Positions 1 through 32,469 of a DNA stretch of 32,469 bases are shown one piece after another (the first letter of the stretch is position 1; the number at the start of each line of letters is the position of its first letter). This DNA comes from a virus. Where the stretch lies: IMG/VR virus record IMGVR_UViG_3300042154_000518, positions 1-32,469 of that record, one strand, 5' to 3'. The translations under genes and the position numbers were made by a program. The notes under the pieces were generated by a model that was not told the DNA's origin, ran no database searches, and saw only the letters and a program-made list of their open reading frames with translations.

Positions 1-153
1 TTCAGTTGGTGCAATATCAACTTCATCTGAGCTACTCAAAAATAAGAAATATACTTCATTGATATCTTGCACAAAGTTAAAGAATGTATCTGAGTCAAAG
101 AATACACCTTGTAGACTTTCCGCTGTTTCGTTTGTTACTATCCTTCCTTCCAT
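1..153 (-). CDS. Partial small protein of the tail region, open at left edge
   Basis: Fifty-one codons are visible, beginning MEGRIVTNETAESLQ and remaining open to the first base of the window, so the C-terminus is missing. The start codon shares a base with the stop of the upstream lectin-like gene (TAATG), an arrangement used repeatedly in this genome, which supports real translation. The visible part is acidic and rich in Phe (FFDSDTFFNFVQDINEVYFLF). I do not recognise a family. Position suggests a small accessory protein of the tail appendage operon; that is inference only. Confidence 0.6.
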   Translation of the reverse strand, partial: MEGRIVTNETAESLQGVFFDSDTFFNFVQDINEVYFLFLSSSDEVDIAPTE

Positions 154-4782: not shown

Positions 4783-5966
4783 TAGTTAAGTTGTGATCTA
4801 TATGTATATGTTCTATCTATGGTCACTTGTTCCTGTAGCAATCCATCTCTTCTCCTAGTCTTTAATTGGTAGGTTGAATTAGTAACTTTAACAGGCTCAA
4901 ATTCTGTTCCATTTGTTTGCTCAAGATAAACTATAGGGGAGTCATATAAAGACTCTACCAACCAATTCTGAACATCTTCTGATATCCAATCTGAATTCAA
5001 TACTAATTGCTTATTCTTAGTCTTGGCATAATTTACTTTTTGCCCTGAGTATAGTGGATAAGTGTAGCTGTTACCACTCCATACACCTGGATCACGTTGA
5101 TAAGCAAATGACTGTACAGTTGCTGATTGTGTTGATACTAATCCAAATGTAAATGAATCCCAACATCCAAGCTTATTTAACCAATGCAATCTATAAGGCT
5201 CATATCTTTGACATGCTAAATCCATGTAGATAAAAAATGTTTCTGAACTACTTATACCACCAACATCAACATAAACAAAATATTTAAAACAATCATCAAA
5301 GTCCAATTGTGTTATTGTTGAATTTGCTATAATAGCTTGTGGACCAACATTCAAAATATTATAATCTGTACTTGTTAAAGAAATTGAGAAATCAGAAGCT
5401 ATAACATTTCCTAACACATCATATAGTTCACATGCTAAAGCAACTCCAGCACTACCAGTTGGCTCTAAATAACCTAAATAAAAGTTATCTTCCATTCCAC
5501 ATAAAGCTCTAGATGTTCTTGGGAAATAAGTAAGAAATAAACTATTTTGAGTCTGATTAGGATCATAATCAGCATCATCAAAATCAATCCATTCAGTATA
5601 CTCTAATGATCCATTAAAAGCCTTCAATGTAGTACTAGTATCACTTGCTTGTGTGATTGGTGGATTACCATACTTTTCATAAACTATTATAGCATAAGTA
5701 ACCATTGAATCAGTAGCATCTAGTTCTAAGTTAGTAGTAGGAATAGTATTTCTAATATAAGCTTCTACAGCTTGAGATACATCTATCCTTGATAAAGCAT
5801 TGAACTGTCTGAATACTTGTTGAGTCAACACTAATGTAGAGTCAATGTATAACTCCACAATAAATGAAAAGTTTTCCTGTGCTGTCTGATCACTGCTAAA
5901 AGTAAACACCAAAGGATTGCCAGCTGGTGCTATAGCTTGTGGTTGATTATATATTGTTACTGCCAT
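4782..5966 (-). CDS. Tail structural protein
   Basis: 394 residues, beginning MAVTIYNQPQAIAPAGNPLVF, with NFSFIVELYIDSTLVLTQQVF and later RRRDGLLQEQVTIDRTY near the C-terminus. The sequence alternates hydrophobic and polar residues as in beta-sandwich tail proteins, and resembles proteins found just before the ~800-residue tail-tip protein in Bacteroidetes phages. It overlaps the preceding gp10-like gene by 20 bases and is coupled to the following gene by TAATG. I infer a distal-tail or tail-hub role. There is no motif that would prove it, so the call stays generic. Confidence 0.6.
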   Translation of the reverse strand: MAVTIYNQPQAIAPAGNPLVFTFSSDQTAQENFSFIVELYIDSTLVLTQQVFRQFNALSRIDVSQAVEAYIRNTIPTTNLELDATDSMVTYAIIVYEKYGNPPITQASDTSTTLKAFNGSLEYTEWIDFDDADYDPNQTQNSLFLTYFPRTSRALCGMEDNFYLGYLEPTGSAGVALACELYDVLGNVIASDFSISLTSTDYNILNVGPQAIIANSTITQLDFDDCFKYFVYVDVGGISSSETFFIYMDLACQRYEPYRLHWLNKLGCWDSFTFGLVSTQSATVQSFAYQRDPGVWSGNSYTYPLYSGQKVNYAKTKNKQLVLNSDWISEDVQNWLVESLYDSPIVYLEQTNGTEFEPVKVTNSTYQLKTRRRDGLLQEQVTIDRTYTYRSQLN

Positions 5967-6471
5967 TCTTTAAAAAATTTATTTCAAACATTAATCCAGT
6001 CAACTCAGCCAAATCATTTGCAATCTTATTAAGCACATCATCAGTGATAACATTCTCAGTTATTCTCTTAGGTCTTAAACCTCTCTGCTTGATTTTATAT
6101 GATACTGCATAAGCGTGACTCATATCTAATCCTTTCCATTGACTTATAGCTGTTGCCATGTTATGACTTACACCAGGATAGTTAAATGAAAATCTACTAC
6201 CATAATTGTTACTACCAACAGCATTAACTCCTTCATCAACAAATGGATAGTAATCATCAGCCTCTAATCTAAATGATAACAGTCCAGTTGGTACAGGTAT
6301 AATTGAAGCTGCTAATGCTCCAGTGTTCTGAGCTACCTTCTTAGTGTAATCTCTGAATTCAGTTGCAAGCTGTGTTGATAAACCTGTTATAAATCTATCA
6401 TAAGCAGTTTTTGGCTTCTCAGCTTCCTGAGTAGTGATACCAAAGTCCTCAAGAAAATCAAATTCTGCCAT
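5947..6471 (-). CDS. HK97 gp10-like neck/tail-completion protein
   Basis: 174 residues. The central part has TGALAASIIPVPTGLLSFRL, then DDYYPFVDEGVNAVGSNNYG and GVSHNMATAISQWKG. The pattern of 'NTGALAxSI', an aromatic acidic stretch ending YxxFVDEG, and a later conserved helix is that of HK97-gp10-like proteins, which sit at the head-tail junction. The start overlaps by 14 bases the end of the -1 reading frame described for the preceding gene, consistent with tight packing. The protein might be a minor tail component instead; family resemblance is moderate. Confidence 0.6.
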   Translation of the reverse strand: MAEFDFLEDFGITTQEAEKPKTAYDRFITGLSTQLATEFRDYTKKVAQNTGALAASIIPVPTGLLSFRLEADDYYPFVDEGVNAVGSNNYGSRFSFNYPGVSHNMATAISQWKGLDMSHAYAVSYKIKQRGLRPKRITENVITDDVLNKIANDLAELTGLMFEINFLKNGSNNI

Positions 6472-6712
6472 TACTTAATATGCGTTTATGTTCGTTCTCA
6501 TCTACTATTCTAAAGTAGTTCATCCAAAATAATGATGTCACATAAGGCTGTTGTGTAATTTTTCCCACACTGAGTCCCATTTCTTTTGATAGTCTATGTA
6601 AGATAGTGGTCCAAGTGAACCATTCTGAATCTTTAATTCCTGATTCATCTGACTCATCTGCATATTCACTCTCACCATCTGTATCCCTAATATAGCGTTC
6701 TTCTGCTTTTTT
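6458..6712 (-). CDS. -1 frameshift extension of the tail assembly chaperone (GT-like product)
   Basis: A reading frame offset by -1 from the 237-codon gene stays open for 84 codons from the heptamer A AAA AAG to TGA at 6458-6460. It encodes KKAEERYIRDTDGESEY, a D/E/S-rich linker (ADESDESGIKDSE), then EWFTWTTILHRLSKEMG, QQPYVTSLFWMNYF and RIVDENEHKRILSNGRI. A charged linker followed by a compact helical, Trp-rich end looks like a genuine C-terminal domain. A product made by slippage would have 264 residues and share its first 182 with the 237-residue protein. It fills the 66-base gap before the next gene and overlaps that gene's start by 14 bases. It is not a free-standing gene: no start codon is expected. 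The alternative is a sequencing indel in the A run. Confidence 0.65.
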   Translation of the reverse strand, partial: KKAEERYIRDTDGESEYADESDESGIKDSEWFTWTTILHRLSKEMGLSVGKITQQPYVTSLFWMNYFRIVDENEHKRILSNGRI

Positions 6713-7251
6713 GAGTAGTGCAAAAAAAAACTAAAGAAGTTTAAAAATTCATCACCAGGGAAATGTTCTTTAAACAAATGATATCTATTATCATTAGGAT
6801 TAAGTAATCTACCTCTATCATCCTCTTGACAATATTCCATACCTTTCTCAAGGTACATAATTGCTAATGCTTGACATGGATCTTGGCTAATGTCTTCAAT
6901 CAACTTTAAGTCAATAATCTGTCCAGTAGCAACATGAGAGAAGTTCTTTTCCAGCCTGTACTCTTTACCATTGATAGTAATGAATTCTTTTGGCTCAGTA
7001 TATTGATAACTACTCAACATCTTAAGCAAGTGATTGGATGCCTCCTGAACACTTGAGATATCAGAGTTCTTAATCTTATTGATTGACTCACCACTGAATA
7101 TACTAAGTAACTGACATTGGAAAATTAAAAACTGAGTGATGTCCTCTTCTTTCTGTTCCTTGATAGCATCAGCCATCATTAACCATTTAGTCATTTGCTC
7201 TGGGCTACAATCAGCAATGGTTTTTGGTAGTTTAATATCTAGTTGTTTCAT
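6538..7251 (-). CDS. Tail assembly chaperone-like protein (zero-frame product)
   Basis: 237 residues, starting MKQLDIKLPKTIADCSPEQM and overlapping the terminase stop (ATGA). The middle has EFITINGKEYRLEKNFSHVATGQIIDL and CQALAIMYLEKGMEY, a pattern seen in Bacteroidetes phage proteins that set up tail assembly. An A AAA AAG slippery site at codons 180-182 allows ribosomes to leave this frame, so two proteins with a common N-terminal 182 residues and different ends are predicted. Gp G/GT-like chaperones coat the tape measure protein and recruit tail tube subunits. In most siphoviruses this gene directly precedes the tape measure gene; here the tape measure is elsewhere, which is odd. Identification rests on the frameshift signal and context, not on strong sequence similarity. 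Confidence 0.55.
   Translation of the reverse strand: MKQLDIKLPKTIADCSPEQMTKWLMMADAIKEQKEEDITQFLIFQCQLLSIFSGESINKIKNSDISSVQEASNHLLKMLSSYQYTEPKEFITINGKEYRLEKNFSHVATGQIIDLKLIEDISQDPCQALAIMYLEKGMEYCQEDDRGRLLNPNDNRYHLFKEHFPGDEFLNFFSFFLHYSKKQKNAILGIQMVRVNMQMSQMNQELKIQNGSLGPLSYIDYQKKWDSVWEKLHNSLM
6706..6712 (-). other. Slippery heptamer A AAA AAG, programmed -1 frameshift site
   Basis: In the zero frame the codons read TCA AAA AAG CAG (residues 180-183), giving the X XXY YYZ heptamer A AAA AAG. This is the efficient -1 slippery sequence known from bacterial dnaX. The -1 frame is open for 82 codons beyond it. Frameshifting of this kind is a known feature of tail assembly chaperone genes in siphoviruses. 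I see no strong downstream hairpin or pseudoknot by eye. Confidence 0.65.
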
Positions 7252-8450
7252 ACTCTTAATGCCATGTATCTGCCTCGGTTTGTAAACTCTTTCTTACTAT
7301 GCCATGCTAATGCTGTAGATATAACTCCATCATCATGCAATCCTGATGGTGCAGAATAAGTTACATTCCTTGTGTTTGGATTGTAAATATAGGAATAATT
7401 TTCAAGCTCATCTATCAACCATTGTTCATTGATAATTGATATTGACTCCTGTTCAAATGCTACAGCAAGGTCCTCAATAATGATTGGCTTTGTCTTAGAG
7501 CTTGTAACAAATGGATGGATTAGATTCTTACACCTGGACTGAAGCATTTCATAGAATACATCACCTTGATTGTTTACCTCCACCAATGTAGTTGCATTAT
7601 ATTGCTTGATGATAGTTGCTACCTTCTCAATGATTTTACTCCATTCATCATGTCTCCATCTGTGAGCTGTGACCATCTGACCATCTTGATTGAGAATAGT
7701 TAATACAGTGTAGTCATCAGCTCTACCAATATCTAATCCTCCATACATCTTAGCTGTCTTATTTGCTACTTTAATGCAGTTACTTACATTCTTAAATATA
7801 CCAGATGCATTATCTATAAACTCAGCCATGTACTCTTGTCTGAATACTATATCAGGTAGTGATCTCTTTCTCTCTTCCAGTTCTCTTGGATCAATCATTG
7901 GATTGTCATAAGAAGTGAAATGAAAGTAAGCATACCTATCATCATAGTTAGGTTGCATACATAATCTATGAAAGTGATTCTTACCTTTTGGAGTAGAGAT
8001 AAATATTATCTTCTTACCTTTCACCAGGACAGTTGCACTAAGTACCTCATCCCAAAGCTCAGGTCTAGTAAATGCCATCTCATCTACTACCATGTAATCA
8101 AAGGTATTACCTCTGATATTATCTGGTCTTTCACCTGAAAAGAATTCTATGGTAGATCCGAATCCTGTAATCATTAAGTCTGATCTATTGAATGAAAATA
8201 AACCACTTGCTGATGTTGCTCTTTCCATTTCAGAGAATACTTTCTTGCCTTGCTTATAGACTGGAGTTACCCAAGCAATTTTACAACCTTTATCATTGAT
8301 GGCCCAGTATAACAATTGGTTGATTCCAAGCATGGTCTTGCCAAACTGTCTACCAATATTTAGAGCATAGTATTTCTCATGGCCATGGTTAATAGCATCA
8401 TGAATTGTTCTCTGATTATCATGTGGTTTATAACCTTTGACTGTACTCAT
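7248..8450 (-). CDS. terL: Terminase large subunit
   Basis: 400 residues. The ATPase domain has Walker A GRQFGKT (33-39) and Walker B YMVVDEM (119-125), with the coupling ISTPKG motif near 151. The nuclease domain opens with GGLDIGRADDYTVLTI (Asp240 as first metal ligand), continues with VEVNNQGD (about 290) and ends with HDDGVISTALAW (about 370-380), supplying the acidic triad expected of the RNase H-like nuclease. It cuts concatemeric DNA and powers packaging through the portal. It overlaps the small subunit gene by 4 bases (ATGA) and the tail-chaperone gene likewise. Size is typical for a compact large terminase. Confidence 0.95.
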   Translation of the reverse strand: MSTVKGYKPHDNQRTIHDAINHGHEKYYALNIGRQFGKTMLGINQLLYWAINDKGCKIAWVTPVYKQGKKVFSEMERATSASGLFSFNRSDLMITGFGSTIEFFSGERPDNIRGNTFDYMVVDEMAFTRPELWDEVLSATVLVKGKKIIFISTPKGKNHFHRLCMQPNYDDRYAYFHFTSYDNPMIDPRELEERKRSLPDIVFRQEYMAEFIDNASGIFKNVSNCIKVANKTAKMYGGLDIGRADDYTVLTILNQDGQMVTAHRWRHDEWSKIIEKVATIIKQYNATTLVEVNNQGDVFYEMLQSRCKNLIHPFVTSSKTKPIIIEDLAVAFEQESISIINEQWLIDELENYSYIYNPNTRNVTYSAPSGLHDDGVISTALAWHSKKEFTNRGRYMALRV

Positions 8451-8868: not shown

Positions 8869-9936
8869 TTAATTACAGTACTTGATATAGAATGTATAAG
8901 GTACCACTTTAAGTTTAGCAAGTATCCAGATAACATGCTTATATTTTTTGAAGTCATACTTCTCAAAGTTATCTCTGCTCCCCATTCTCATATTTACAAG
9001 TCTTAGCATTCTTTCAGCACTTGTTCCAAGTTTTGTGAAATCAAATTCTGACTTTATGCTAAACTTTTCTTTTGCCTCTTCTTTAGTTAGCTTTCCACTT
9101 CTTACTTGTGCAGCAAGGTATACAATTCTTTTATCTATATTAAACTTTTCAGGTAGAAGGAATGATCCAACAAACTCAGTATAGACATTCTCACAATGTT
9201 TTCCACCATAATCTTTCCAGTTGATTAGTCTTTTCATTTCAGCCTCCATTGTATCTCTATCAAATCCATAGTGAAATGGTCTGACATTCTTGATACCTAT
9301 CAAGGCATAGAATAATTGGTCCTTGAAAGTGAAAAGAGGATAGTTGTGAAGCTTGAGTCCAGTGTATTTGTTATAAACTGACTGAATATATTTAGCATCC
9401 ATGTAGGTCCATCCTTTTGGGGTTGATCCTTCAGTTCTGAAGTCATGACCATTGAGAATATACTTTATGCCATATTTGTAAGCTGTGTCATACATTAGCT
9501 TAGTCATTGCTATGTCATTTGGAATATCAGCATCTGGAATACCGGCAGCAAGGAATGAATCATTCAATCTGTCATACTCAGCTTTATTAACATTGTATGT
9601 TATTAAGTCTACATTAAGTTGTTTGACTAATTGAGTCATATTGTGAATAGCCTCTGGAGCATTCCAGTTATTATCAAAGTGTATAACAAGAGGCTTCAGA
9701 TTCCAATATCTTACAGCTGTATACAGAAGAGTGCTGGAGTCAATACCTCCAGATATTCCCATAATGCAGTCATAGGTCTTATTATTACCTTTGGCTCTTA
9801 TCTCTTTGATTATATGCTTAAGCTCATGAGGATTAGCTTGTAGTTCAAGTTGATCATGTAGGTCACAGTACTCGCATTGTTTTTCTGTTATAACTGTTAT
9901 TGACTCATCAAATAAACAGCGTGGACATTCTTTCAT
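8869..9936 (-). CDS. N-acetyl sugar amidotransferase, WbpG/PseA family
   Basis: 355 residues. Two CxxC pairs at the N-terminus (CPRC at 4-7, CEYC at 21-24) precede the PP-loop SGGIDSS (62-68) that binds ATP. Further signatures of the family are LNGHDFRTEG (about 162-171) and WKDYGGKHCENVYTEF then LLPEKFNIDKR (241-271). Family members (P. aeruginosa WbpG, PseA) convert an acetamido group of a nucleotide sugar to an acetamidino group for O-antigen or flagellin glycans, usually with ammonia from HisH/HisF-like partners. No such partners are visible here, so a host protein or free ammonia would be needed. It directly follows a glycosyltransferase gene, so a sugar-modification role is likely; the substrate is unknown. 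Confidence 0.9.
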   Translation of the reverse strand: MKECPRCLFDESITVITEKQCEYCDLHDQLELQANPHELKHIIKEIRAKGNNKTYDCIMGISGGIDSSTLLYTAVRYWNLKPLVIHFDNNWNAPEAIHNMTQLVKQLNVDLITYNVNKAEYDRLNDSFLAAGIPDADIPNDIAMTKLMYDTAYKYGIKYILNGHDFRTEGSTPKGWTYMDAKYIQSVYNKYTGLKLHNYPLFTFKDQLFYALIGIKNVRPFHYGFDRDTMEAEMKRLINWKDYGGKHCENVYTEFVGSFLLPEKFNIDKRIVYLAAQVRSGKLTKEEAKEKFSIKSEFDFTKLGTSAERMLRLVNMRMGSRDNFEKYDFKKYKHVIWILAKLKVVPYTFYIKYCN

Positions 9937-17885: not shown

Positions 17886-17908
17886 TCTGCATAATGTTTT
17901 TAAAAAGT

Positions 17909-17956
17909 AAAGCCCATTAATCTCGAGTGATGCAGCACTTTTGACTAATGAGCTTT
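17909..17956 (-). promoter_or_regulatory. Leader hairpin (attenuator-like) before the replication gene
   Basis: On the minus strand AAAGCTCATTA (17956-17946) pairs with TAATGGGCTTT (17919-17909), 11 base pairs including one G-U wobble, around a 26-base loop. The T run ACTTTTT follows. It lies between the promoter at 18013-18041 and the start codon at 17885. A six-codon open frame (ATG CAG AAG GTT AAT TAT TAG) begins earlier in the leader. The hairpin may end or slow transcription; regulation is inferred. Confidence 0.5.
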
Positions 17957-18012
17957 AAAAAAATGTCCTAGTGACTAATAATTAACCTTCTGCATTGTTA
18001 ATTTTCACTGGA

Positions 18013-18041
18013 CAAATGTAGTAATTTTTCTTAGATTACAA
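18013..18041 (-). promoter_or_regulatory. Bacteroidetes-type promoter for the replication gene
   Basis: The minus strand reads TTG (18041-18039), 18 bases, TACATTTG (18020-18013). The -7 element is perfect and identical to the one at 14938-14945; the spacer is one base shorter than usual. The heptamer array begins 12 bases upstream, so proteins bound there could also control this promoter. Confidence 0.65.
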
Positions 18042-18052
18042 AAAATAATTAG

Positions 18053-18226
18053 GTGTAAACTACTGTAAAGTGACTTTACACCTGACTTTACAGTAACTTT
18101 GTAGTATCTATAAGGCTTGTAGCCATTTTAGGTGTAAAGTTTACAGTAAATCTTATTTTTAAATTTATTTTCTATTTATTTTTTTTTTACCTACTGTAAA
18201 GTGACTTTACACTTTACACTTTACAC
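18053..18226. repeat. Iteron-like array of TTTACA[C/G] heptamers, candidate replication origin
   Basis: Ten copies of TTTACAC or TTTACAG occur in both orientations in 174 bases: 18053, 18063, 18075, 18087, 18132, 18140, 18194, 18206, 18213 and 18220 (start positions). They build perfect palindromes: TGTAAAG-TGA-CTTTACA at 18064-18080, repeated at 18195-18211, and TGTAAA-G-TTTACA at 18133-18145. The last three copies are in direct tandem. A run of almost pure A/T (about 18147-18190) lies between them, as at a duplex-unwinding element. No canonical DnaA box (TTATCCACA) was seen. The array sits between a DnaA domain-IV-like gene and the replication gene. The rest of the 17886-18220 gap holds only the promoter and hairpin listed separately. 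Confidence 0.7.
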
Positions 18227-19618: not shown

Positions 19619-20219
19619 TGATTGTTTTGTTTAGTTTACTTGTTAATTTAATTACTTGTTGTATTTCTTGGGGGAATCTTTGGATGCTGTTTCTTATGAC
19701 ATTGTCCTTCATGCTTATGCATTGTAAGTTGTCTAACTGACAGTTCCTGGTGTTACCATCTATAAAAGTTATTATGTGCTTGTTAGGAATTGGTCCATTA
19801 GCATCAATCCATATTTTTTGATGGTAAAGAATCCACTTGCTATCAGCTACTTTGTAGTATAGATATATTCTACCACTTTGATCAGCATCTTTTCTCTCTA
19901 CTATAGTTCCATCAGGCTTCCAGTTATAAGGTCTATTACCTGGTTTAAACATTGTAGCTTTGACTTTGTCATAGACTTCTGTAGGCATTTCTTTGCCTTT
20001 ATTAAATGGTATGTGTCCAGCTTTAAATCTAAACTTTTTACCACCATTAATTAAATTATGTCTACCTGACGACTCTGACCTTTTAAACTCTAGTGTTTTT
20101 TTAAGGCCCATTGTGAATGCTCTGTTAGCTACTTGAGAATAAGTCAATCCTAAGTCATCAGCAATAGCTTGAGTTCTTTCATGAGGGAATCTTTGTCTTA
20201 TGATTTCATTAGGTGTCAT
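19596..20219 (-). CDS. HNH endonuclease with N-terminal HTH
   Basis: 207 residues. The N-terminus (HERTQAIADDLGLTYSQVAN) is a helix-turn-helix. Residues 131-166 read LYHQKIWIDANGPIPNKHII then TFIDGNTRNCQLDNLQCIS, the HNH_3 pattern: His133, Trp137, NG-x-IP, DGN (154-156) and N-x-x-L-x-NL. Free-standing HNH enzymes of this kind are often homing endonucleases, but some take part in phage DNA processing. This one lies in the middle of the early operon, overlapping both neighbours, with no visible intron, so it may be a resident gene. Confidence 0.85.
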   Translation of the reverse strand: MTPNEIIRQRFPHERTQAIADDLGLTYSQVANRAFTMGLKKTLEFKRSESSGRHNLINGGKKFRFKAGHIPFNKGKEMPTEVYDKVKATMFKPGNRPYNWKPDGTIVERKDADQSGRIYLYYKVADSKWILYHQKIWIDANGPIPNKHIITFIDGNTRNCQLDNLQCISMKDNVIRNSIQRFPQEIQQVIKLTSKLNKTINGKKQNQ

Positions 20220-21539: not shown

Positions 21540-21569
21540 CAAATATAACTATTTTTTTCTTCTAAGCAA
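21540..21569 (-). promoter_or_regulatory. Bacteroidetes-type promoter at the end of the lysis cassette
   Basis: Minus strand: TTG (21569-21567), 19 bases, TATATTTG (21547-21540). The TTG lies within the 3' end of the acidic repeat gene and the -7 element starts 2 bases after its stop. No gene follows before terminator T1. Confidence 0.6.
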
Positions 21570-21824
21570 GAATTTTATTAACTTACCTATCAATCCTGAC
21601 TGCTCATTAACATCTACATTCACCTCACCATTGTTGACTTGTACATCTACCTTCTCAGTATCTATTTTAAGCTCTTTTAAGTCACTATCTTTGTGAAAGT
21701 CTACGTCTACTTTATCTGTGTCTACTTTAACGTCTGTAACACCATCTTTTCGTGTCACTTTAATATCTACATTCTTAGTATCAATATTGATGTTGATGTC
21801 TTTTTTTTTCTTAGGTGTTTTCAT
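21549..21824 (-). CDS. Acidic beta-repeat protein with cationic C-terminal helix
   Basis: 91 residues. After a lysine-rich start (MKTPKKKKD), residues 10-75 alternate Val/Ile with Asp/Lys in repeated units: INIDTKNVDIKVTRKDG, VTDVKVDTDKVDVDF, LKELKIDTEKVDVQV and EVNVDVNE. This looks like a small beta-solenoid or beta-meander. The end, GLIGKLIKFLLRRKK, is a cationic amphipathic helix like those of membrane-active peptides. It starts in a TAATG-type overlap with the endolysin stop, so it belongs to the lysis cassette. A role in outer-membrane disruption or in anchoring is inferred, not shown. Confidence 0.6.
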   Translation of the reverse strand: MKTPKKKKDININIDTKNVDIKVTRKDGVTDVKVDTDKVDVDFHKDSDLKELKIDTEKVDVQVNNGEVNVDVNEQSGLIGKLIKFLLRRKK

Positions 21825-28549: not shown

Positions 28550-29452
28550 TTATTGTTCGGAAATTCCTAATTCTTTTAGTTTACTTTGTGTCCATTGTTT
28601 AGCTGCTGGTCCACCCCATAATAAATAAGAGATAGTCCCACATGCAGATTCATCACTTGGATTATAATACTCCTCAGCTCTTGATAGATAAGAATACATT
28701 CTTTTTATAACAGCAACTGAGACAGTCTGTCTATTAGCTAAAGTTGTTGCTCTTAATCTACCAACCCTTGTGGCACATTTATTTCCATACTTCTGATTGA
28801 GCTCAATTCCTTTCTTTGCATTGTTAGTTACAGCTTCAGGATAGTCATTGTAAAATGTTATGTATTCCTGTACTTGCTTTAACTCTTGATAGATTGCTTT
28901 GAATTCATGTTCCCATCCTTTTCCAGTCTCAAGTAATTGGAATACACCTTCAATTGAGAATCCTGTAAACATACCAGCTTTAGCAGCATCATATATATCT
29001 TTATTAGTAAGCTTATAAGATACTAACCATGATCCATCTTTCTCATCTTTAAACCTTTCAGGAGCTGTGAATCCTTTTTTCTCATCAATGATATAAGACA
29101 TAATCATATAGATACCATCTACTACTCTCTTACTATTATGCTCAAGATTAACATTGTTAAAGTTTTCTCTTCTAGCATAATCAAATACTATATCCTTAAT
29201 TGATGCTGGGGAGAAATTTACATAATACTCTTCTCCTGTACTTGGATCTCTTCTAAAAATTGGAGTATTAGCAGAAATAGCTACACCTGTTATTACTTGC
29301 TCCTCATCATTGAATTGATAAGCAATCTTTTGTGAGAATGTCTCAAATGATTTCTCATGAGCTGGATTAGCTACAAGGCTATTGAATGACACTGTAGTCT
29401 CTGGATCATCCAGATCTATTATAATATCATATAATGGTAATTCTCTTAGCAT
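28550..29452 (-). CDS. XkdF-like prohead protease with extra C-terminal domain
   Basis: I start it at Met 29452 (MLRELPLYDIIIDLDD); a start at 29497 would overlap the plus-strand gene. The XkdF-like protease domain runs through NSLVANPAHEKSFETF, ITGVAISANTPIFRRD, GEEYYVNFSPASIKDI, NVNLEHNSKRVVDG (likely catalytic His) and TGFSIEGVFQL (likely catalytic Ser). The last ~75 residues, GNKCATRVGRLRATTLANRQ and ACGTISYLLWGGPAAKQWTQ, form a separate conserved module with two Cys that is often attached to phage head proteins. It matures the prohead by cutting scaffold and capsid proteins. Next downstream is the scaffold-like gene. Confidence 0.8.
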   Translation of the reverse strand: MLRELPLYDIIIDLDDPETTVSFNSLVANPAHEKSFETFSQKIAYQFNDEEQVITGVAISANTPIFRRDPSTGEEYYVNFSPASIKDIVFDYARRENFNNVNLEHNSKRVVDGIYMIMSYIIDEKKGFTAPERFKDEKDGSWLVSYKLTNKDIYDAAKAGMFTGFSIEGVFQLLETGKGWEHEFKAIYQELKQVQEYITFYNDYPEAVTNNAKKGIELNQKYGNKCATRVGRLRATTLANRQTVSVAVIKRMYSYLSRAEEYYNPSDESACGTISYLLWGGPAAKQWTQSKLKELGISEQ

Positions 29453-29464
29453 ATAATTATTATG

Positions 29465-29472
29465 TATATTTG
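29465..29472 (+). promoter_or_regulatory. Possible -7 element for the plus-strand gene
   Basis: TATATTTG on the plus strand, 6 bases before the ATG at 29479, so transcription would start at about the start codon (leaderless). No TTG at the expected -33 distance. Confidence 0.25.
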
Positions 29473-29478
29473 TTCGAA

Positions 29479-30159
29479 ATGATTTTTGTATATCCATACC
29501 ATAGCAAGGTCACTTATGACTTTGAGATTATTCAATCTATTGAAATTATTAGACATCTATATCCTGATGCTAAGATATATACCATAGGTAAAGAAATACA
29601 AGGAGTCAATAATATACCATGCAATCAACACAATAACATCAGAGGATGTGATGTTACCAATAGAATCTTAACTTTTGCAAAGAAGATTGGAGGAGATTTT
29701 ATTTATATGAATAAAGATTTCTTTTTAAGTGAATCATGGCAGCCTCATGTAGCAATTAATAATGGACCATTGATTGTTAATCCTGAACATCCACCACATA
29801 CTAAGATAGCTCAAAGTAATACTCTTGAATTCCTTAAGCATAACAACTTTACTGCTTATAATTTTGAGACTCATACACCTGTACTAATGAATAGTCAAAA
29901 GTTAATTGATCTATTTGATAATATTAATTGGCAGAATGATAATCATTTCATTAAATCAATCTATTGCAATGTTTACCAGGTACCATCTAAAGAAGGTGTA
30001 AATTCAAAAGTATCTGTAGCGTCAATTGATAAAGCTCAAGAATTTATATCTATCAATGGATGTTTCTCAACAGGGGATAACTTCTGGAATAAAGCTACAG
30101 TAAAATGGATTAGAAGCTTGACTTCACCTCCTGGACAGCTACCTTGTTCTGAACATTAG
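29479..30159 (+). CDS. Glycosyltransferase-like protein, Stealth/GT-A-type, only plus-strand gene
   Basis: 226 residues started at Met 29479 (MIFVYPYHSKVTYDFEIIQS); an upstream ATG at 29434 would run through the divergent gene. The order of segments suggests a nucleotide-sugar transferase: SIEIIRHLYPDAKIYTIGKE (strand and turn as in CR2 of Stealth proteins), KKIGGDFIYMNKDFFLSESW (comparable to 'DFIYFNDDMFL' with one Asp replaced by Lys) and HTPVLMNSQKLIDLF. The Lys at the usual first DxD position makes catalysis by the standard mechanism uncertain. Its end overlaps the tape measure gene tail-to-tail by 50 bases. This looks like a moron gene; sugar transfer is inferred. Confidence 0.6.
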   Translation: MIFVYPYHSKVTYDFEIIQSIEIIRHLYPDAKIYTIGKEIQGVNNIPCNQHNNIRGCDVTNRILTFAKKIGGDFIYMNKDFFLSESWQPHVAINNGPLIVNPEHPPHTKIAQSNTLEFLKHNNFTAYNFETHTPVLMNSQKLIDLFDNINWQNDNHFIKSIYCNVYQVPSKEGVNSKVSVASIDKAQEFISINGCFSTGDNFWNKATVKWIRSLTSPPGQLPCSEH

Positions 30160-32469
30160 TGATATCATATTCCAATACTGCTACCTTAGTCATATTCTGT
30201 AAATTAGTAGCTGTAACATTCTGACTATTAAGATCAGTTTGTTGAGTATTAGTATTAGCTGTGAATGTTGATGCTGTTGCTCCTAATGATGTATCACCTG
30301 GTGGTGGTGGTGCTGTTGGTGGAGTTCCTCCTGAATTAAACTTAGTCTTAGAAATTGCTGCTATTTGTGCTGCTCCTGTAATAGCAGAGAATGCAGAGAA
30401 TGGTAGACCAAATGTAACTGGTGATGCTGCTACTGACTTACTTATTGCACTAGCAGTTGAGATTATAACTTCAGATATCTTAAGAGCTTTCTCTCTGTTA
30501 AATGCTTTCTTTCTAATCTCATTCTGAGCACCTTCATTACCTTCTAACTTCTTAATTCTTTCTTCATCATTAGCATTGAGCAATCCATTCAATGCACTCA
30601 TTGTCTCTTTAAATGCTTTAGCTATCTCAATTACTTTGTCAATATTTGAGATTATTTTTTTAACTCTTTCGTCATCTATTTTCTTTTGTTCTTCAGCAAT
30701 AGCTTTGTCATTAGCTACTTTTTTCTTACCATACTCTAAATTGATTTCATTAATCTCATTTAGTTTAGCAGTTTCTATAATTGCTAGTTGTTCAGCATTT
30801 CCCTTGGCTTGTTCTTCTAGAGTAAAATATTTATCATTAACAGCTTGGATTTCATTTTGTTGCTCTGAAAATAAACGCTGTCTATTTTCTTCTGCTATTA
30901 TTTCCAACTGATTCAAATATTCTACTTCAGCTGCTTTTCTTAATTTATTAAGTTCATTTTTTTGATTCAATACAGCATCACTTTCAATCTTAGCATATTT
31001 GCCATTTATCTCTGCAATTTCTGACTGTTGTTTAGCTATTAATTCTTTATCACTTTGACCGGCTGCATCTGCTTTTGCATATAATTCTTGATACTTATTA
31101 TCTAATGCTTGTAACTCTTTCTCCTTAGCATCTGTAATCTTAGACTGTCTTTCAGCTTCAATTGCATCAAAGAATTCAGTAAGCTTTTTATTATAGTCTT
31201 GTTCTTCTTTTAATCTATCTTCATTTGCTTTTTTATTATTATCAGACCTTTTTTTATCAATGTTAGCTTTGTTAATATCCAATTGATTCTCAGCATCTAA
31301 AATAGCATCAGTTGTTTCTTGAATTGATTTCTTTGTTTCTGCAATAAGCTCATCATTTACTCCCATTGCATTGGTAGCTTTTAATATTCTCTCATTTAAT
31401 TCAAGTTCTTTTAATAATGATTTTTGATATTCAATAGAATTTTGAATTCTCTTTTCTACCAATGCATCTGAACTTTTACCTTGAGCTTCTAATAATGCAA
31501 TTTGTCTACCTAATGATTTATCTTCAGCATTATAAGCATCCTCCCTAGCTTTACGTTGTTCAGCTTGTTTAGCAAGAGATTTATCTACTCTCTTCATGTG
31601 AGCTTCATGTCTTGCTTTTTGATCACGTTCTGCTTTGTTATCAATGACATTGAAGTATTCTAATGCTTTGATTGCAGCATAAACAACCCCTATAAATGGA
31701 AAGAATATTCCAATTAAAACTTTAACTCCAACACCTAATTTATCAAAGTAGTCGTAAGCTTTAACAACATAACCTGATAGTTTAATTACTACCTTACTTA
31801 CTGTATCAAAATTAGCAATCAAAGTTCCTATTAAAACAATAATAGCTCCAATACCAGTAGCAATTAATGCTGCTCTAAATGCCTTTGTTGCAAATGTTGC
31901 TGTATTAGTTGCAACAGTTAATCCACCTTCTGCTGTTGCTAGTCCAGCTGTTGCACCAATAGATCCTGTTAATATAAATGCTTTAGCCTTTTCAAGTCCA
32001 TTTCTTAACTGTAGACCTAAGATTGACTCCTTATTCAAGTTGTTTGAAATAATACTAACAGAATTAACAAGGCCCTGAACAGCTTGAAGCTTAACCATTG
32101 TCTCTGCTAATTTCTCATTCTCAACTCCAGCTAATGCAGCAGCAGATTGTATACCTTGAAATGCAGCAGCTCCAGTCTCTATTCCTTGTAATGTAGTATC
32201 AAGTCCAACAAAGTCAGATGATAAAGCTGTAGTCTGAGCTTTTAAATCTCCAATCTGATCCTTTAATTCAGCAGCATTTCTAATTGCTTGTTGACCTACT
32301 GGACTCTTATCACCAGCTTGCAATGCTAAAGTCTGATACTCCTTCATTGTTCTAGTCAACTCTCTCATAGTGAGTCCACCAGCTTCAACTCTAGCATTTA
32401 GTTCTTGGATTTTCTGGTCAAAATTATCTATTCCAGTATTATCAGAAGCTGTTGCTTGTGTTGCTTTTA
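30110..32469 (-). CDS. Tape measure protein, partial at its N-terminus
   Basis: Open from the right edge (in-frame residues KATQATASDNTGIDNFDQKI lie before the Met at 32368), so the true start is outside. 785 codons are visible. Two long hydrophobic stretches (AALIATGIGAIIVLIGTLIA and VGVKVLIGIFFPFIGVVYAA) plus AFILTGSIGATAGLATAEGG sit in the N-terminal half. A long Lys/Glu/Gln-rich coiled-coil region (KRVDKSLAKQAEQRKAREDA onward) follows, then a Pro/Thr/Asn-rich tail near the C-terminus. Tape measure proteins fix tail length and enter the host membrane. Its 3' end overlaps the plus-strand gene. Confidence 0.85.
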   Translation of the reverse strand, partial: KATQATASDNTGIDNFDQKIQELNARVEAGGLTMRELTRTMKEYQTLALQAGDKSPVGQQAIRNAAELKDQIGDLKAQTTALSSDFVGLDTTLQGIETGAAAFQGIQSAAALAGVENEKLAETMVKLQAVQGLVNSVSIISNNLNKESILGLQLRNGLEKAKAFILTGSIGATAGLATAEGGLTVATNTATFATKAFRAALIATGIGAIIVLIGTLIANFDTVSKVVIKLSGYVVKAYDYFDKLGVGVKVLIGIFFPFIGVVYAAIKALEYFNVIDNKAERDQKARHEAHMKRVDKSLAKQAEQRKAREDAYNAEDKSLGRQIALLEAQGKSSDALVEKRIQNSIEYQKSLLKELELNERILKATNAMGVNDELIAETKKSIQETTDAILDAENQLDINKANIDKKRSDNNKKANEDRLKEEQDYNKKLTEFFDAIEAERQSKITDAKEKELQALDNKYQELYAKADAAGQSDKELIAKQQSEIAEINGKYAKIESDAVLNQKNELNKLRKAAEVEYLNQLEIIAEENRQRLFSEQQNEIQAVNDKYFTLEEQAKGNAEQLAIIETAKLNEINEINLEYGKKKVANDKAIAEEQKKIDDERVKKIISNIDKVIEIAKAFKETMSALNGLLNANDEERIKKLEGNEGAQNEIRKKAFNREKALKISEVIISTASAISKSVAASPVTFGLPFSAFSAITGAAQIAAISKTKFNSGGTPPTAPPPPGDTSLGATASTFTANTNTQQTDLNSQNVTATNLQNMTKVAVLEYDITNVQNKVAVQEVKSSF

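Follow-up and report, generated by a model that had tools for sequence, protein, structure and literature searches.

How many proteins does the gene behind the terminase of this virus encode, and how are they made? The window, by which we mean the whole analysed stretch of 32,469 nucleotides, carries on its minus strand an open reading frame for 237 amino acids (6538-7251 with its stop codon, taken from the ORF list), here called gene X. It lies directly after the gene for the terminase large subunit (7248-8450, minus strand; phrog_2 with E 2.8e-44, Terminase_6N). The first-pass annotation had noted this frame, a zero-frame A AAA AAG heptamer inside it (6706-6712, minus strand), a -1 frame that is open down to 6458, and a gap of 66 bases before the next gene. 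From these it had predicted a -1 frameshift at the heptamer, with products of 237 and 264 residues. All four features are indeed there, and both product lengths hold. It had not mentioned a run of nine Ts a little upstream (T9; 6722-6730, minus strand, codons AGT TTT TTT TTG), which opens the same -1 frame as the heptamer.

Below we argue that gene X has one start and is, in all likelihood, decoded in two ways: by standard reading into the protein of 237 residues, and through a -1 shift at T9 into one of 264.

Gene X and its surroundings

The extension in the -1 frame (6458-6724, minus strand) has 88 codons and a stop. It fills the 66-base gap and overlaps the next gene by 14 nt. That gene (5947-6471, minus strand, 174 aa) looks HK97 gp10-like by eye, and the gene order is the same in related genomes. 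The layout of the extension is a short helix, an acidic linker and a Trp-rich helical domain (EWFTWT...PYVTSLFWMNY), and in 40 diverse members the residues F1, E8, Y11, E34, W35, W38, P60, Y61, W67, N69 and E76 are invariant. Gene X itself is conserved in 80 viral contigs at 70-100% amino acid identity, with relatives down to 42%, and its -1 frame is open in all complete loci.

The longer predicted product would consist of 176 N-terminal residues common to both forms followed by the 88 from the -1 frame. Two products with a common N-terminus had been foreseen before, but the 182 common residues given then have to be reduced to 176. With a slip at T9 the junction would read FALLKK, while a slip at A AAA AAG would give LHYSKK. 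The predicted -1 peptide of the window that would locate the slip at T9 is EHFPGDEFLNFFSFFFALLK; the peptide suggested earlier, KKAEERYIR, does not locate it.

A putative tape-measure gene (30110-32469, minus strand) is cut at the window end; it is called from its sequence character and has no family match. In relatives of complete size the tape measure lies 5.2-6.4 kb downstream of gene X, with several genes between them. Both ends of the window (1-153 and 32300-32469) fall inside genes, a small one at position 1 and the putative tape-measure gene, whose N-terminal residues are missing in comparison with the related genome G009. The two ends cannot be closed into a clean circle, although relatives with sizes of about 32-33 kb have the look of circular permutation. 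Between the tape measure and protease genes there is an ORF of 241 aa (29434-30159, plus strand) that is opposite in strand to all its neighbours and has no Pfam match. Upstream of the terminase genes, which is an unusual position, a protein of 355 aa (8869-9936) has a match of PP-loop ATPase type (PAPS_reduct, E 5e-5) and N-terminal CxxC pairs; by eye it resembles the N-acetyl sugar amidotransferases of surface-polysaccharide synthesis. Two further homopolymers were seen in the window. The gene at 21549-21824 begins ATGAAAACACCTAAGAAAAAAAAAGAC and has a minus-strand A9 (21801-21809), i.e. a slippage-prone run within its first codons and in coding sense. A T10 on the plus strand (18179-18188), the only run above nine in the window, lies in a stretch without a listed ORF (17886-18220).

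Probable position of the slip

In the window and its first 80 IMG/VR relatives (70-100% amino acid identity) T9 is found in the same codon phase, with both frames open, in 81 of 81 loci. When distinct segments were collected with the tail motif, and not X, as the anchor, 168 of the 169 loci of the window's family had exactly nine Ts. The sole exception, L325, has a deletion of about 230 nt that removes T9 and part of X; this contig (at L325:2999) is either a misassembly or a defective phage. The run is also kept in relatives at 42-57% amino acid identity, among them a contig from a metagenome-assembled genome (MAG; L082). Over a tree of length 5.66 the T9 columns show zero substitutions, and the codon that opens the run varies (AGT, GGT, GCT) with its last base always T. 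Apart from this site, T-runs of at least eight are avoided on the gene X strand: 1.3 Mb of locus DNA contains 9 T8 against 212 T9.

The A AAA AAG heptamer, where the slip had been placed at first, behaves differently. It is a classic in-frame heptamer in the window and its closest relatives (L001-L013), but it is broken in L014, at 86% amino acid identity, and absent from the rest, and yet the -1 frame and T9 are retained there. Because most relatives without the heptamer keep both frames and T9, we reject it as the conserved slip site, and a slip at this position in place of T9 is very improbable. The alignment of homologues, which had been proposed beforehand as a check, thus bears out the conservation of the -1 frame and not that of the heptamer. 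A minor extra slip at A AAA AAG may occur within the lineage of the window. From the comparison of loci we infer that the slip would take place at T9 and not nearby.

A structure search with Foldseek linked X to a protein of the cultured Nonlabens phage P12024S, which infects a flavobacterium. In P12024S, gp38 lies directly after TerL and contains T9 as CTT TTT TTT TAT; the -1 frame continues through gp39. P12024S and P12024L thus share with the window the order TerL-X-tail, T9, and a -1 frame that is open through the tail domain. They differ in having only 25 zero-frame codons after the run, and in the codon phase of the run, which is spread over three codons as 1+6+2 in the window's family and as 2+6+1 in the sister family. 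Profile-profile comparison of the two families (X, E 7e-10; tail, E 0.0035) supports homology of X and weakly supports homology of the tails. A tblastn search of X against cultured phages gave no match.

Among the relatives of P12024S, all 62 informative loci have the run, 61 as T9 and one as T10, and the zero-frame extension past it varies from 16 to 84 codons. In the wider group with a WGWY tail, of which more than 585 loci are present among the matches listed, the 76 informative loci sampled comprise 66 with T9 and ten with T10, none having fewer; two loci cut by contig ends were left out, and this sample overlaps slightly with that of the P12024S relatives. In L401 and the ten WGWY-group loci with T10 the frames are kept, mostly since the first codon of the run became TTT. 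The WGWY tail has no match in 289 genomes from the phylum of the L082-bearing MAG.

Substitutions in the two frames

Next, we counted parsimony changes per site in 100 unique sequences. Upstream of the overlap the values at codon positions 1, 2 and 3 are 3.05, 1.40 and 10.25; in the overlap (6541-6721, minus strand, about 60 codons) they are 1.94, 3.94 and 4.44. Past the zero-frame stop, the changes counted by -1 positions are 2.2, 0.93 and 9.0, a pattern that is purely that of the -1 frame. Going by the substitution pattern in these three regions, gene X codes first in the zero frame, then in both frames and finally in the -1 frame.

The wobble position of each frame is constrained in the overlap. 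Changes at the zero-frame wobble fall to 43% of the single-frame rate (p=6e-12) and those at the -1 wobble to 44% (p=6e-4, with only 15 control codons), and the first and the second half of the overlap each show both drops. Sites count as independent in these tests, so that the p-values should be seen as guides. The zero frame is most constrained over the first 30 codons of the overlap, where the -1 wobble changes 2.68 times per site, and less so later (5.11; p=0.01). Late in the overlap, two conserved zero-frame glycines sit over conserved -1 tryptophan codons, and these glycines may follow from the tryptophan codons. Taken together, these substitution patterns show both frames of the overlap to be under purifying selection. 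In agreement with the first-pass annotation, a -1 frameshift with an unusually long dual-coding overlap is thus supported: both frames are conserved across relatives, and about 60 codons would be read twice, compared with 5 in lambda G and about 5 in P2 E.

Could the two frames instead be one true frame that is split by a homopolymer indel, arising by sequencing or mutation, as the competing explanation had it? Homopolymers are error-prone. However, T9 (in the sister family sometimes T10, with frames kept) and both frames are found in about 250 independent contigs and in the two sequenced isolates, P12024S and P12024L. Selection on both frames also rules out an indel or a pseudogene, and we regard this explanation as excluded, with a probability close to nil. 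Neither do two separate overlapping genes, where the -1 ORF has its own start, seem at all probable. Such an arrangement is found in the annotation of P12024S, in which gp39 starts from an internal ATG. But in the window's family there is no ATG, GTG or TTG before codon 41 of the -1 ORF in 39 of 40 diverse representatives, and residues 1-40, from F1 on, include conserved positions. With no start before codon 41 and conserved residues in front of it, a frameshift is therefore needed.

Possible mechanism of the slip and possible role of the two products

In our model a fraction of the gene X products would enter the -1 frame at T9 (6722-6730). We have a mild lean towards slippage of the RNA polymerase, which would add one U at T9, because the length of the run is constant while its codon phase shifts. 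All intact loci of both families have T9 or T10 and never fewer than nine, and in many bacterial genomes slippage-prone runs begin to be selected against at a length of nine (PMC1088944). The scarcity of other T-runs of eight or more on the gene X strand points the same way. A search for a stimulatory RNA structure downstream of the run gave no consistent signal (mean z -0.3 to -0.6, no RNAalifold pairs; pseudoknots were outside the search). We also considered a CTCGC...GCGAG hairpin, about 20 nt past the run in some subgroups, but it is too far away and not common to all. The minimum of nine in both families and the lack of a consensus RNA structure therefore favour the polymerase.

A purely ribosomal -1 frameshift, in which a pair of Phe-tRNAs on T TTT TTT would move back by a single base, as in tail assembly genes of the lambda and P2 type, is nevertheless a serious candidate, although we consider it somewhat doubtful. 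This heptamer stands in frame in every intact member of both families (6724-6730, minus strand, inside T9 of the window), and nine Ts in any phase contain it. In P2, gene E shifts at TTTTTTG with no structure following it (PMC3091744), tailed phages are known to shift at a low level where stimulators are lacking (PMC5009743), and sites of the lambda and P2 type work on the ribosome without such a structure (PMC5009743; PMC3091744). For a ribosomal slip, however, seven Ts would suffice, and runs of seven or eight occur in no member, whichever the codon phase; nor is any downstream structure conserved. Amino acid constraint can account for the two extra Ts, i.e. Leu/Phe in the window's family and a hydrophobic first codon plus Tyr/Trp in the sister family. 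Since the in-frame heptamer is always present and the extra Ts are explicable by amino acids, the run length is no proof of polymerase slippage.

Polymerase slippage, to which we give a slight preference, has precedents in the programmed transcriptional slippage of Thermus dnaX, Shigella spa13 and IS elements. Like gene X, these have a conserved nine-base A/T run and a conserved shifted frame and need no structure. In the open literature that was searched, we found no report of polymerase slippage in a phage morphogenesis gene, or of a tail chaperone with a T9 site.

Concerning function, the analogues are lambda gpG/gpGT and P2 gpE/E+E' (PMC5009743). Lambda gpG/gpGT resembles the predicted gene X pair in having one start, a short and a -1-extended form, a -1 part that is a distinct domain, and a place in the late structural block. 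In lambda, where the -1 shift is ribosomal, the slip occurs on GGGAAAG, 5 codons of the zero frame remain after it, and the gene adjoins the tape-measure gene H. Gene X, on the other hand, has T9 and about 60 dual-coded codons, lies 5-6 kb from the tape measure, and gave no match in sequence or fold; its slip site is not near the end of the first ORF but some 60 codons ahead of it. P2 gpE/gpE+E' has in common with gene X a T-rich slip site (TTTTTTG) without downstream structure (PMC3091744). In P2 E the slip is at 19685 and the E stop at 19705, which leaves about 5 codons of overlap, and the gene adjoins the tape measure T; gene X differs by its nine Ts and its long overlap.

By this analogy, the pair of 237 and 264 residues probably works like lambda gpG/gpGT. 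The abundant short form would hold one tail partner, and the rare long form would recruit a second one via the -1 domain during tail assembly. We write that it works like a chaperone, not that it is one, because there is no family or PDB fold match, the tape measure is distant and the overlap is far longer. The earlier label of a tail-chaperone-like gene is thus plausible by analogy, but neither a family, profile or PDB-fold match nor an adjacent tape measure backs it. No homology of X to known chaperones was found in Pfam, NCBIfam, PHROGs, PDB sequences or by Foldseek against PDB, and the PDB matches of the X profile, which fall on short repeat motifs in toxins of clostridia and in cell-wall-binding proteins, were judged spurious. 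The AF2 models have moderate confidence (pLDDT 71 and 69). Foldseek against BFVD returned many unnamed phage proteins, including I6R9M9 of P12024S, and an entry named tail assembly chaperone at E 0.6 and probability 0.28; the model of the tail domain had no significant Foldseek match.

The missing chaperone homology, and the location of the gene directly after the terminase and 5.2-6.4 kb before the tape measure, would also fit a protein for head-tail joining or another step of morphogenesis that is made in two forms, decoded as described above. We see this as possible but less than probable: a -1-extended pair among structural genes is what one typically finds for tail assembly chaperones, and an unsystematic look revealed no other shifted pair adjoining the tape measure.

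If both the chaperone-like role and polymerase slippage are right, which we suggest only tentatively, a very widespread phage group, present in at least part of the Bacteroidota, would produce its tail-chaperone-like pair not by ribosomal frameshifting but by programmed slippage of the RNA polymerase at an obligate run of at least nine Ts, with a long doubly selected stretch. The -1-shifted gene pair has been hidden until now in this large group: in the deposited annotation of P12024S, gp38 and gp39 are two hypothetical proteins, and in PHROGs they are two unlinked unknown families (phrog_32199 and phrog_38404). T9 is a simple mark by which the pair can be found and annotated. The long overlap is also a good natural case of dual coding, with built-in flanking controls where only the zero frame and then only the -1 frame is read. 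If polymerase slippage is the true mechanism, the ratio of two phage morphogenesis proteins would be set at transcription and not at translation, and the host RNA polymerase would help to set it.
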